From Nitrospirota bacterium (lineage in GTDB: Bacteria; Nitrospirota; 9FT-COMBO-42-15; HDB-SIOI813), in the NCBI GenBank assembly GCA_020851375.1, contig JADZCV010000005.1, forward strand, positions 62,001 through 126,000: a DNA stretch of 64,000 nucleotides, given 5' to 3'. Of the stretch, positions 9,533-54,128 are shown one piece after another. Position numbers and translations under genes: made by a program. Under the pieces are notes generated by a model that saw only the letters and a program-made list of their open reading frames with translations, was not told the DNA's origin and searched no databases. How positions within the stretch are numbered: the first letter of the stretch is position 1; every line of letters starts with the position of its first letter.

Positions 9533-10540
9533 GTGAGAAAAATCGAGATCTGTGCCCCTGCAGGTAACCTGCCTTCTCTTAAGGCCGCAGTTGACAATGG
9601 CGCTGATGCTGTATATATGGGCTTCTCCGGGGATACCAATCTCAGGAACTTCCCTGCACTGAACTTTACAGATGACGAGGTCTGTAAGGCAATAAAATAT
9701 GCCCACAGCCGGAAATCCAGGGTCTACATTACAGTAAATGCCTACCCTCAGCAGAGGGAACTTCCACTTGCATATCAGGTAGTTGACAGGGCATATGAAT
9801 ACGGTGCTGATGCGGTAATTGCATCTGACATCGCTGTCCTTTCCTATGTCAGGGAAAAATATCCTGACAAAAGGCTTCATCTCTCTGTTCAGGCAAGCGC
9901 TTCGAATGCGCACGCAATTGAGTTCTGCCGCAGGCACTTCGGAATAAAAAGAGTTGTGCTGCCGAGGGTCCTGACGATAGAAGAAATAAGGGCATTGCGG
10001 GAACGAACCAGTGTGGAGCTTGAGATATTTGCCCTTGGGCTTCTATGCATCAACAGCGAGGGGCAGTGTTTCCTGTCTTCATATCTTACCAGTGAATCAA
10101 TCAATACGTACGGTGCATGTTCTCATCCAAAGTTTATCAACTTTGAGGAGGATGAGGACGAAGGCATCATGAAGATATTGTCAGGAAGCGTGCTTCTTAA
10201 TAAATGTTCTTCAATGGAGGAGATGGCATATCCGACTCCATGCAAGGGGCGTTATCATAACACGGCAACAGGGGAGCTGGGTTACTCAATACAGGATCCG
10301 GAATCACTCAATGTCCTTGAGATACTGCCGGAGATTATACGGTCAGGCATAGATTCAATTAAGATTGAAGGCCGCCAGAGGAGCAGGACGTACGTAGAGA
10401 AGGTAGTCAGGACATTCAGGGAGGCAGTAGACAGGTACTATGATAATGGGGTTCCCAGGGCCGGCTCAGGTGCGGGAGAGGAACTGCAATCATTATTCGA
10501 AGGCCTCGCGCCGAGTGCAGGGTGTTACAAGGGCAAGTGA
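9533..10540 (+). CDS. ubiU: U32 family protein UbiU, oxygen-independent quinone hydroxylation
   Basis: In proteobacteria UbiU forms a heterodimer with UbiV, each holding a 4Fe-4S cluster, and hydroxylates ubiquinone precursors without O2. The four cluster cysteines are present at C172, C179, C196 and C237; the 7- and 17-residue spacings equal those known in Escherichia coli UbiU. Other U32 hallmarks are the N-terminal EICAPAG and the IDSIKIEGR segment near residue 295. GTG at 9533 is the start, with AGGA about 7 bases upstream. ubiV and ubiT homologues follow. Because the host is probably not a proteobacterium, the product could be another quinone (for example plastoquinone-like); related U32 peptidases or TrhP are less likely given the partner genes. 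Confidence 0.85.
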   Translation: MRKIEICAPAGNLPSLKAAVDNGADAVYMGFSGDTNLRNFPALNFTDDEVCKAIKYAHSRKSRVYITVNAYPQQRELPLAYQVVDRAYEYGADAVIASDIAVLSYVREKYPDKRLHLSVQASASNAHAIEFCRRHFGIKRVVLPRVLTIEEIRALRERTSVELEIFALGLLCINSEGQCFLSSYLTSESINTYGACSHPKFINFEEDEDEGIMKILSGSVLLNKCSSMEEMAYPTPCKGRYHNTATGELGYSIQDPESLNVLEILPEIIRSGIDSIKIEGRQRSRTYVEKVVRTFREAVDRYYDNGVPRAGSGAGEELQSLFEGLAPSAGCYKGK

Positions 10541-10556
10541 GCCGTCATTAGCCGGA

Positions 10557-10672
10557 GGCTCACAAAGGGCAATGAAAACGTCATTCCCGCGAAAGCGGGA
10601 ATCCAGACCGAGGCCTGGTTCTGGATTCCCACTTCCGTGGGAATGACGGGTACTTAGGAGTATTTTCGAGTG
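10557..10672. repeat. Inverted repeat of the CATTCCCGC ... GGGAATGACGGG class, reaching into ubiV
   Basis: The core at 10580-10650 contains the arms TCATTCCCGCGAAAGCGGGAATCCAG and a complementary GGATTCCCAC ... GTGGGAATGA. The 5' flank (10557-10578) recurs with one mismatch before the different repeat at 12808-12829. The last 42 bases (10633-10674) recur exactly at 53216-53257 before prmC. The repeat supplies TTAGGAG and the GTG start used by ubiV. Confidence 0.85.
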
Positions 10673-11596
10673 AAACTATCTCTTGGTCCCATCCCATTCT
10701 TATGGGAAAAGAATAAGATAATCTCCTTTTATAAGGAGATTGCAGGTACTCCTGTCTCTGCCGTCTATATAGGTGAAGTGGTGTGCAGCAAGCGCGCCAT
10801 ACTTGGCATTGACACTCTGAGGACAATCGCCGGGATGCTTGCTGATGCAGGTAAAGAGGTGGTTGTTTCCACTTTCGGCCTTATGACGAACAATGAAGAA
10901 CTTGAGCTTGCGGAGGCTCTGTGTAAGCTGCCTGTACCTGTCGAGATCAACAATATGGGCATCCTGAATTTCTGTGAGGGGAAGGAGACTGTTGCCGGCC
11001 CTCATCTTGCCATATACAATGCCCCGACAGCAGGGTTTTACTCGTCCATAGGTGTGAAACGGATAGTATTCATGCCGGAACTGAGCATGGATGCTATTAA
11101 GTCAATCTCATCTGACGTCCCGGAGGTTGAGAAAGAGATAATAGCGTTTGGGAATCTCCCTTTGGCATTTTCATGGAGGTGTTACACAGCGCGTGCACTT
11201 GGCATGTCAAAGTCAAATTGCGCAATCTCCTGTATTAAATATCCTGAGGGGATGCCTCTTGAGACTATGGACAGGAAGCCTGTTTATAACATAAACGGCA
11301 CACAGATTGTAAGTGCGCAGAAGGTTTGCATGATCGGGGAGATAGAATTATTTAAGGACATGGGCCTGAGTTTCCTGCGCATTATACCGCATGCAACTGC
11401 TACGTCAGAAATAATTGACATCTTTAACAGGGTCATTGAAGGAAGTCTTACAAAGTCGAAGGCACTTGAAGATTTACGAAGATTTGCACCGGAGGGTATT
11501 AGTAATGGCTGGTTCTACGGACAACCGGGCTGGCAATATGTGGGTAAAGAATCTGCTGCGGCTTATGCCAGCGGCATTTCACAACCACATATTTAA
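10670..11596 (+). CDS. ubiV: U32 family protein UbiV, partner of UbiU
   Basis: UbiV is the second Fe-S subunit of the O2-independent quinone hydroxylase. The cluster cysteines C39, C171, C184 and C188 are all present; C39 and the 13- and 4-residue spacings of the last three match Escherichia coli UbiV. The 308-residue length fits. The GTG start at 10670 lies inside the tail of an inverted repeat whose GGAG sits 9 bases upstream. The reading frame runs 92 bases into ubiT. UbiV shares the U32 fold with UbiU but lacks the fuller C-terminal part. Confidence 0.87.
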   Translation: MKLSLGPIPFLWEKNKIISFYKEIAGTPVSAVYIGEVVCSKRAILGIDTLRTIAGMLADAGKEVVVSTFGLMTNNEELELAEALCKLPVPVEINNMGILNFCEGKETVAGPHLAIYNAPTAGFYSSIGVKRIVFMPELSMDAIKSISSDVPEVEKEIIAFGNLPLAFSWRCYTARALGMSKSNCAISCIKYPEGMPLETMDRKPVYNINGTQIVSAQKVCMIGEIELFKDMGLSFLRIIPHATATSEIIDIFNRVIEGSLTKSKALEDLRRFAPEGISNGWFYGQPGWQYVGKESAAAYASGISQPHI

Positions 11597-15384: not shown

Positions 15385-15393
15385 TTTGGCTAC

Positions 15394-15510
15394 GAACGCC
15401 ATAAATGTCTTTCTACGGCGTTGGACTCCTTAGGAAATCCTCAGCGTACTTAATAGTACGCCTCCGGTTTCCTTCGTCGTCCGCCTTGTAGAAAGGCATT
15501 TCTGACGTTC
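15394..15510. repeat. Palindromic repeat element C (117 bp), upstream of tRNA-Ser(GCU)
   Basis: The outer arms GAACGCCATAAATG ... and ... CATTTCTGACGTTC form an imperfect inverted repeat, with a central GCGTACTTAATAGTACGC hairpin. It is identical to element D apart from one base near the right arm. The remaining bases of the 15202-15797 region hold only short AT-rich repeats (near 15239-15268) and the two tRNAs. Confidence 0.85.
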
Positions 15511-15563
15511 TAACTTGCTGAAAACACAATTACGTTCCTAACTACGTATTCTGCAAACATAAT

Positions 15564-15650: not shown

Positions 15651-15657
15651 TTGCTAC

Positions 15658-15774
15658 GAACGCCATAAATGTCTTTCTACGGCGTTGGACTCCTTAGGAA
15701 ATCCTCAGCGTACTTAATAGTACGCCTCCGGTTTCCTTCGTCGTCCGCCTTGTAGAAAGCCATTTCTGACGTTC
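15658..15774. repeat. Palindromic repeat element D (117 bp), upstream of tRNA-Ser(UGA)
   Basis: A direct copy of element C, 264 bases away, with one base difference (AAGCC for AAGGC in the right arm). It has the same outer inverted arms and GTAC-centred hairpin. It lies between the 3' end of serS and tRNA-Ser(UGA). Confidence 0.85.
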
Positions 15775-15797
15775 TTAGTTGCCAGGAAATTTTGGGC

Positions 15798-52677: not shown

Positions 52678-52840
52678 CAGGAGTTATTGCCTTCCTATGA
52701 GGTTATTGTAAATGGAATTAATAATCTATTCTGGATTCTACAGGCTGTTTGCAGTATAGTAATTTAGATTTTGCCGGTCAAGAAAATTCAAGACCTGACG
52801 CCGTTATACGGACTGGCATGATCAGGGGCTGTTTTCGGAG

Positions 52841-53252
52841 GAACCGTCATGAGCCCTTCGACTGTTCGACAAGCTCACAGCTCAGGGCTCACCAGGGTTC
52901 ATGAAAACGTCATTCCCGCGTAAGCGGGAATCCAGACCGGGGCCAGATTCTGGATTCCCACTCCCCGTTTAAATCCTGCGGGGACAGGTTCCGTGGGAAT
53001 GACGGGTGAATAGGAGCATTTTCAGGTGAACCGTCATGAGCCCTTCGACTGTTCGACAAGCTCATAGCTCAGGGCTCACCAGGGTTCATGAAAACGTCAT
53101 TCCCGCGTAAGCGGGAATCCAGACCGGGGCCTGGTTCTGGATTCCCACTCCCCGCTTAAATCCTGCGGGGACAGGTTGTGTGGGAATGACGGGTGAAAAA
53201 TCCTGCAGGGACAGGTTCCGTGGGAATGACGGGTACTTAGGAGTATTTTCGA
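52841..53252. repeat. Tandem repeat region (187-bp unit) containing CATTCCCGC palindromes, upstream of prmC
   Basis: Unit 1 (52841-53027) and unit 2 (from 53028) are nearly identical over 187 bases. Each carries GAGCCCTTCGACTGTTCGAC, AAGCTCA(C/T)AGCTCAGGGCTC and the CATTCCCGCGTAAGCGGGAA palindrome. After unit 2, part of the right arm is repeated again (53197-53240). The final 42 bases equal the tail of the repeat before ubiV and include the ribosome-binding site and GTG start of prmC. 52678-52840 shows nothing recognisable. Confidence 0.9.
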
Positions 53253-54128
53253 GTGAATGAAATTAGTACAGTTGCCGGCCTTCTAAGATGGGCCAATGAT
53301 TATCTCGTCTGCCGCAAAGTGCCTTCTCCATACATAGATGCAGAATACATCCTCGCCCAAATACTCGGATGCCGGCGAAATGACCTGTTGATTTACCCGG
53401 ACAGAATCCTCACTCAGCCTCAGATAGAACAATTTAATGCATCTATTGAAAGGAGAGGCAGGAGAGAACCCCTGCAATATATAACAGGTGAAGTAGAGTT
53501 CAGGGGGCTTATGTTCAAGGTTAACGCAGACGTACTTATTCCAAGACCGGAGACAGAATTGCTGGTGGATGAAGTTGTAAATATCATAAACAAAAAAACG
53601 GTTACAGTACTCGACCTCTGCACAGGCAGCGGCTGTATTGCTGTGTCTATAGCAAAGGAACTGACTGAGGGTAGTGTATATGCAGTTGACATATCTGAAG
53701 GCGCTGTGACAGTGGCAAGAGAAAATGCCTTAAGGAATCAAGTAGAAGAGAGGATAACATTTCTGACAGGTGACCTGTTCAGGGCCACAGATAAGATAAA
53801 CCTCAAAGGCAGAATTGATATCATAGTCTCAAACCCACCGTACGTGTCTGCTGAGGAAATGGAAGAACTCCAGCCTGAAATAAGGGATTATGAACCTGCG
53901 TCAGCGCTGTTTGGAGGAGAAGACGGCCTTGATTTCTACAGAAGTATAATCCGCGAATCACCTTTATACCTTGCGCCCGGTGGCTCTGTGATATTGGAGA
54001 TGGGATATGGGCAGGCAGGCAGGATAAGGGAATTGTTTGACAGGGAGGAAAGATTTCGTAATATAAGGATAGAAAAAGATTTGGCAGGAATTGAGAGGAT
54101 AATAATGGCCATATTTAAATGCAGTTAA
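53253..54128 (+). CDS. prmC: Peptide chain release factor N5-glutamine methyltransferase
   Basis: Methylates the GGQ glutamine of release factors RF1 and RF2. The 291-residue protein has an N-terminal helical domain (about 1-80), then the SAM-binding motif VLDLCTGSGCIAVSIAKE and the catalytic NPPY motif in IIVSNPPYVSAEE. The GTG start at 53253 lies in the last bases of a repeat element, with TTAGGAG ten bases upstream. prfA is not adjacent, unlike in many genomes. Its end overlaps the convergent TonB-like gene by 4 bases. Confidence 0.94.
   Translation: MNEISTVAGLLRWANDYLVCRKVPSPYIDAEYILAQILGCRRNDLLIYPDRILTQPQIEQFNASIERRGRREPLQYITGEVEFRGLMFKVNADVLIPRPETELLVDEVVNIINKKTVTVLDLCTGSGCIAVSIAKELTEGSVYAVDISEGAVTVARENALRNQVEERITFLTGDLFRATDKINLKGRIDIIVSNPPYVSAEEMEELQPEIRDYEPASALFGGEDGLDFYRSIIRESPLYLAPGGSVILEMGYGQAGRIRELFDREERFRNIRIEKDLAGIERIIMAIFKCS

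Follow-up and report, generated by a model that had tools for sequence, protein, structure and literature searches.

We consider it probable that the stretch of 64,000 nucleotides analysed here (the window) and the rest of its source genome carry nonautonomous mobile cassettes which insert at RTGA sequences, chiefly those of translation start regions, and whose right end constitutes a complete translation start. The two ends, the insertion at RTGA, the association with gene starts, the different middles and the co-variation of the left-end stem were all shown by comparison of sequences. Use of the cassette start codon in translation is inferred, there being no expression data, as is movement of the cassettes by an unidentified strand- or site-specific recombinase that recognizes the hairpin of the left and right ends. 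The original prediction of a mobile repeat supplying translation starts was supported.

Cassettes upstream of ubiV and prmC

The 42 bases at 10633-10674 had been predicted to recur at 53216-53257 and to contain TTAGGAG, a short spacer and a GTG that opens ubiV in the first copy and prmC in the second, and each of these points was borne out. The 40-mer core (10635-10674 and 53218-53257) was identical in the two copies, the preceding two T residues also matched and no match to the core was detected in 100 shuffles. A 9-base spacer separates TTAGGAG from the GTG in both copies, and the resulting ORFs of 308 (ubiV) and 291 (prmC) codons had profile matches above the cut-off (Table 1). Residue 2 of the UbiV ORF was aligned to position 1 of profile NF047965 and the PrmC ORF matched TIGR03534, both alignments agreeing with a gene start at the cassette start codon. 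A spurious-looking 68-codon ORF at 10440-10646 (+) reads through the palindrome of the first cassette (SFPRKRESR) and is the kind of false gene that such repeats create in annotations.

Table 1. Positions of the cassettes and adjoining genes in the window
Feature	Position	Strand	Basis or remark
ubiU, upstream gene	9533..10540	+	338 open codons before TGA; UbiU model best match, below its cut-off
ubiU stop TGA, left copy of the RTGA insertion site	10538-10540	+	Empty-site comparison
Left end of cassette 1	10538..10579	+	TGA + GCCGTCATTAGCC-loop-GGCTCACAAAGG...CAATGAAAAC, imperfect hairpin; fold and empty site
Exchangeable middle of cassette 1	10579..10650	+	CGTC-tagged CATTCCCGC palindrome, folds as one long hairpin
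Right end of cassette 1, TACTTAGGAGTATTTTCGAGTGA	10651..10673	+	Repeat search
Shine-Dalgarno-like TTAGGAG from cassette 1	10654..10660	+	Function inferred
ubiV; GTG (10670-10672) from cassette right end, ATG in relatives	10670..11596	+	Relatives and profile
First cassette of the two-cassette array upstream of prmC	52840..53025	+	Its first TGA reads GGA
GTGA junction between the tandem cassettes	53026..53029	+	Sequence
Second cassette upstream of prmC	53027..53252	+	Left end, CGTC palindrome with internal duplication, right end
Shine-Dalgarno-like TTAGGAG of the second cassette	53237..53243	+	Function inferred
prmC; GTG (53253-53255) from cassette right end	53253..54128	+	ORF and profile

Cassettes are approximately 125 to 240 bp in length and consist of a left end, a palindromic middle and a right end. 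The left end comprises RTGA followed by ACCGTCATGAGCC, a loop, GGCTCACAAAGG and then CATGAAAA, and forms a hairpin. Co-variation in another genome of the family, G007, in which GCC/GGC, ACC/GGT, GCG/CGC and AAC/GTT stems were found and 23 of 29 were fully paired, indicated that this stem is real. The right end, AGGAGNATTTTCGR followed by RTG(A), is made up of AGGAG, an ATTTTCGR spacer and RTG and thereby forms a complete translation start.

The CATTCCCGC core, present in 275 copies in the source genome (G000), was only one of several middles found between the same ends. In G002, which belongs to the same genus, the same left end and a nearly identical right end (TATTTCGA followed by GTGAA) enclose an unrelated middle composed of CCCCCTTT...AAAGGGGG repeats, and in G007 several kinds of middle are arranged head to tail, each unit ending in ATTTTCGG followed by ATGA. 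Unrelated middles were also detected between these ends in G003 and in part of G000, where cassettes with the CCCCCTTT middle precede, for example, bioD-like and birA-like genes (C4:25592 and C44:29865; named by eye). As the same ends surround different middles, the CATTCCCGC repeat is, on this comparison, a passenger, and it was rejected as the carrier of the start. The prediction that a mobile-looking repeat class had installed a translation start was correct in that a repeat installs the start, but the start-bearing part is a separate conserved right end and not the CATTCCCGC repeat.

A shared hairpin leader had also been proposed and was upheld as a predicted fold, with the whole leader of cassette 1 folding far above shuffles (z -5.9 as RNA and z -5.9 as DNA); for imposed regulation there were no data. 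In the RNA model, the Shine-Dalgarno-like sequence would be partly paired with the beginning of ubiV, and its free accessibility was not settled.

For prmC, direct empty-site evidence was weak, since relatives differ at the PrmC N terminus. A promoter scan upstream of prmC detected nothing on the strand of this gene, and Rfam gave no match to the two window cassettes examined (L005 and L006). Two direct 130-base copies, 98% identical and 264 bases apart, are present elsewhere in the window (15389-15518 and 15653-15782).

Position at gene starts and the insertion target

All of the genomes used were draft metagenome-assembled genomes, that of the source (G000) comprising 2,496,842 bases in 49 contigs. 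A genome-wide search for the repeat, with measurement of its distance to gene starts, agreed with the prediction, most tails lying at starts. The last 24 bases of the 42-mer were found in 55 copies with no more than 3 mismatches, 26 of them exact, while a reversed-pattern control gave 0. A GTG, ATG or TTG at the set place opened a long ORF (at least 60 codons or, in one case, open to the contig end) in 34 of the 55, in comparison to only 5 for the +2 frame, the +1 frame being closed by the TGA of GTGA. One tail with the codon GTA (L031) was left out of the 34; among those counted, L012 has only 41 codons open, up to the contig end, and for L010 an ATG located five codons downstream may be the start. 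No long ORF was opened by the other 21 tails. Another cassette begins immediately after seven of the 55 (L045 by eye), and several nonopening tails (L013, L016 and L050, by reading) are located about 10 to 30 bases upstream of a gene with its own ribosome-binding site. The genes at these tails are unrelated: a profile search of ten proteins placed alr, queC, hpnE, murJ and rmlD above the cut-off, besides ubiV and prmC, and hisG, hemC, tgt, gatB and purC were named by eye only.

Two other sources of the repeat were considered. That the tail is a common native ribosome-binding site was rejected because the shared sequence spans 24 bases and is missing from the empty sites, and misassembly of the genome is unlikely because copies occur on many contigs and the same design is found in two further species.

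Because the 55 copies had been selected by their tails, an additional sample was based on left ends and drawn from 804 kb not chosen by tail (C45 as far as 340 kb, C44 as far as 260 kb and C4 as far as 120 kb, together with 20 kb of C5 and the window). This sample contained 47 left ends, of which 44 were paired with a right end within 460 bases. Another cassette directly followed 11 of these 44 cassettes and a third repeat (ATGATGTATCTGAAATATAATTC…) followed 4; the remaining 29 were terminal. An ORF of at least 60 codons was opened by 19 of the 29 terminal cassettes and by 3 in the +2 frame. A crude gene call for the same 804 kb yielded 293 RTGA gene starts versus 1247 RTGA sequences in noncoding DNA on both strands, giving an expectation of ∼19% (293/1540 tolerated RTGA sites), and the observed proportion was 3.5-fold higher (P = 5.6e-8). 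This null is rough, with promoter and regulatory DNA being counted as tolerant and the gene call being a simple one. Among the 42 sampled cassettes whose left end has the TGA, this TGA terminates a long ORF (100 codons or more) in 3 (1 and 0 in the other frames). A stop/start overlap therefore applies to only a minority of cassettes.

A cassette reduced to its left end and lacking the AGGAG right end was observed directly before a gene start (VKQAGALFLLVQ...) at C44:242417 (-) of G000, offering a natural experiment on the need for the right end. The third repeat (ATGATGTATCTGAAATATAATTCTTTGTGTCCTTTGTGTCTTTGTGGTAAATAACGGGG) follows cassettes at an RTGA junction near positions 156003, 161337, 304217 and 308837 of C45, terminates in an ATTTTC-like sequence plus RTGA and may be another family at the same site. 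A CRISPR-like array with the repeat ATTTCATTGCGCCTATAAGGAATTGAAAC is located near position 241029 of the same contig (in L066).

Orthologues without the repeat gave a result in keeping with the prediction, as relatives show an uninterrupted gene start. In four relatives, ubiU and ubiV meet in a 4-base ATGA stop/start overlap (…AAGG(G/A)(A/C)AA-ATGA-A…). The G000 junction reads …AAGGGCAA GTGA (cassette) …TTTTCGA GTGA AACTATC, with TGA on both sides. The stop of ubiU is retained on the left, and on the right ubiV has gained a new Shine-Dalgarno sequence and GTG, the use of which in translation is inferred. At a second junction (L017), G002 has a GTGA overlap and the upstream protein ends in DGEIIFR before the stop in both genomes, and at a third (L002) an RTGA overlap was found in both G001 and G002, with some extra bases in the left flank. 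For queC, the start in G001 reads ATGAACAGG; G000 has at this place an additional stretch resembling the right end, followed by GTGA, the cassette and GTGAACAGG. Clean empty sites numbered only about three, including L002 with its extra left-flank bases. In G005, the end of an ftsI-like gene (578 codons open ahead of its TGA) and the start of a murE-like gene are separated by a cassette, both genes being named by eye. With respect to features of DDE-MITEs, TGA is present on both sides at three empty-site junctions, which a target-site duplication could leave, but the right copy may be the element's own (ATG-to-GTG change), and no terminal inverted repeats were seen by eye between the left and right ends, without a dedicated comparison of termini.

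The orthologue table contained 38 rows, from which 15 with an upstream repeat, 5 whose alignment began at residue 2 with no start codon at that place and 1 concerning an ATG gene were excluded. ATG was present in 14 of the 17 remaining repeat-free orthologues, aligned from residue 1, where G000 has GTG, and hence the cassette is the most likely source of the G in GTG.

The left flanks of 45 cassettes having no recognizable element or repeat in the 110 bases upstream exhibited a consensus, GGGGATTTTCAGR followed by TGA, which was absent from native RTGA starts (n = 230) and random RTGA sequences (n = 784). This consensus resembles the cassette right end itself. It was present prior to insertion at the L017 empty site in G002 and not at ubiV, and at L002 it was apparently acquired. 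The flanks may mean that start-like sites are sought by the element, or they may be what is left of older right ends.

Survivorship alone could produce an association with gene starts if cassettes inserted at any RTGA (or TGA) without preference for starts, copies within genes were purged, intergenic copies decayed and copies at starts were kept because their loss kills the gene. In favour of this reading, RTGA is the only strictly shared feature of the sites, insertions also occur in plain intergenic DNA and native RTGA starts alone would yield the ∼19% given above. The 19 of 29 observed, however, far exceeds this proportion, and the GGGGATTTTCAGR flank that pre-existed at L017 points to a preferred start-like target. 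Yet regulatory DNA is disregarded in the null, and part of the flank could consist of remnants of older right ends (L002). Survivorship alone is considered less likely than the preferred reading.

Under the preferred reading of cassettes that insert chiefly at translation starts, a cassette would enter at RTGA and TGA would then be present on both sides. An upstream gene ending in this TGA would retain its stop, and the downstream gene, parted from its own ribosome-binding site, would receive that of the cassette together with G/ATG. Native ribosome-binding sites would be displaced upstream by approximately 125 to 240 bases or more, and it is inferred that translation of genes such as alr and murJ must begin at the cassette start or fail altogether. 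An otherwise lethal site would be made harmless in this manner, and cassettes could be retained and accumulate in head-to-tail arrays at start codons.

Candidate enzymes and related repeats

The mobilizing enzyme is postulated to be site specific and to recognize the hairpin that arises at the junction of a right end and a left end. Confidence in any one particular enzyme is far lower than that in the cassettes themselves. Integron-like movement, in which a tyrosine recombinase would act on a single strand in folded form and the right end-left end junction would be a long hairpin, would fit the head-to-tail arrays of different middles in one orientation and the palindrome seen by eye at this junction (GATTTTC..ATGAACC..GAGCC/GGCTC..GGTTCAT..GAAAATC). 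An integron integrase was detected above the cut-off in G003, and short fragments were present in other family genomes; however, G003 was the only one of the 10 family genomes with such a match, the gene was unlinked and no cassette ends were found in the fetched flanks. Furthermore, the attC core consensus was not matched by eye and no attI-like platform was seen. Integron-like movement is improbable, and an integron integrase as the mover is unsupported.

That the cassettes are CGTC-tagged REPs mobilized by a RAYT (Y1) transposase, the start-bearing tail being merely incidental, is very doubtful. TCAT just 5' of the left-end stem is complementary to ATGA, and guides of IS200/IS605 elements would be complementary to the target in such a manner. 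The middle, and only the middle, also fits the description of the CGTC-1 REP, which has a CGTC tag, a stem of 8 bp beginning with AT, a loop of 4 bases and a CCA tail (PMC3733652); from 10579 it reads CGTC ATTCCCGC GAAA GCGGGAAT CCAG. Among the G002 and G007 cassettes inspected, however, none contains the CGTC REP, and the ends are retained. A Y1_Tnp family search over the 10 family genomes yielded a single chimeric remnant, in G000, and no match in G001, G004 or G007; left and right ends were not found at the fetched Y1 loci, and no fetched Y1 gene lay between such ends. Because G007 has the most left ends and is rated 100% complete without a Y1_Tnp match, RAYT/Y1 enzymes are unlikely to be the movers. 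In the G000 sequence L053:1030-1890 (-), what is left of a Y1 transposase is joined in frame to a C-terminal sequence that resembles RHS by eye.

An immobile translation leader motif, maintained by selection for common control in the manner of phage Start-Associated Sequences, would account for the strong predicted fold, the conserved Shine-Dalgarno sequence and spacer, the location at starts and the presence of the repeat at the same genes in G000 and G002, but it is highly improbable given the empty sites in relatives, the head-to-tail arrays, the intergenic copies without a gene, the unrelated middles between the same ends and the lack of an evident common function of the genes.

The mobile cassettes were compared with known systems. 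According to the published account, CGTC-tagged REPs (dRS3 in Neisseria) have no known dedicated transposase, GTAG REP termini can supply a TAG stop codon to neighbouring ORFs and uni-REPs lie near gene 3' ends at varying distances from the next start (PMC3733652). The cassettes differ in that the REP is one exchangeable middle and not the mobile repeated unit, separate ends are conserved and one of these ends supplies a Shine-Dalgarno sequence and start codon. Start-Associated Sequences of Cluster K mycobacteriophages (13-bp GGGATAGGAGCCC with AGGAG, some with inverted repeats upstream) likewise place a short AGGAG repeat directly ahead of many start codons; in that account, they belong to phage genomes, are not described as mobile, leave the start codon outside the repeat and have neither empty sites nor an exchangeable middle (PMC3203893). 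The cassette right end does not match this 13-mer, as AGGAGNATTTTCGR differs outside AGGAG. Pneumococcal BOX repeats, which are interspersed, can supply a start codon to an ORF, but the ORFs described there are hypothetical, lack a good Shine-Dalgarno sequence and are not established housekeeping genes (PMC3049150).

Elements that integrate in tRNA genes restore the 3' end, and the rebuilt conserved site makes insertion harmless. Such elements and the cassettes both target and rebuild a conserved functional site; the cassettes differ in rebuilding translation starts of protein genes, in doing so at many genes per genome and in carrying no genes. In a search of the open-access literature, with subscription papers mostly outside its reach, no mobile repeat was found to be described as supplying the Shine-Dalgarno sequence and start codon of established genes. 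The middle is of a known kind (CGTC-tagged REP), while a mobile cassette whose end would provide the start codon of established genes was not encountered in that search and has a fair chance of representing its own class.

With confidence a little short of even, we tentatively propose a new class of mobile element in which an unknown recombinase would target translation start signals and the right end would itself be a start. Insertion, stacking and swapping of middles would give dozens of genes per genome, including essential ones, a rewritten leader and start codon (GTG for ATG) and would uncouple overlapping operon genes. This suggests a new answer to how mobile repeats survive in gene-dense bacterial DNA, by targeting a start codon and bringing a replacement, and it would explain the location of common palindromic repeats in these genomes. 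Dozens of natural leader replacements are available for measurement, and the RTGA site, left-end hairpin and start-bearing right end provide a handle in the search for whatever enzyme mobilizes CGTC REPs and similar repeats.

Distribution in related genomes

Left ends with no more than 2 mismatches numbered 170 in G000, 176 in G007, 65 in G003, 26 in G002 and 2 to 7 in the other six family genomes. With no more than 1 mismatch, they were detected in 18 of 295 genomes of the phylum, namely, 9 of the 10 family genomes (including G000) and 9 outside the family; the latter had one match each, which is about the chance expectation by our estimate, and multiple copies were found only in this family, a group of uncultured Nitrospirota. 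A tail scan of the sequence collection detected 12 contigs versus approximately 2 by a rough chance estimate. These included one Nitrospirae genome (RBG_16_43_11, same site as G001), one Thermodesulfovibrionia and one Nitrospira, the rest being from scattered taxa. A lone right-end tail, without a left end or middle upstream, was observed at a comF-like gene start (named by eye) in G001 (L071:2425-2448).

Association with starts was also observed in other family genomes. G002 cassettes, with their other middle, opened ORFs of at least 60 codons in 12 of 18 cases (0/18 in the +2 frame), and 7 of 14 terminal right ends of G007 opened ORFs (2 in the +2 frame). A loose match to the repeat was present in G002 within 110 bases of the same start in 10 of 16 orthologues examined, among which alr, an oppC-like gene and rmlD had an intact cassette with the other middle at the same start. 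Since G002 has only 26 left ends, the sharing of starts between G000 and G002 looks, from these alignments, to be far above chance. It could reflect either an old insertion followed by exchange of its middle or more than one insertion event at preferred starts.

In two G003 contigs, both of which end within the intron, the 5' part of a group II intron begins inside the left-end hairpin (L211:797-897 and L213:790-871). This part corresponds to Rfam RF02003, with a score above the gathering score in L211 and below it in L213, and the introns of G003 are apparently multicopy and use the cassette hairpin as a target.
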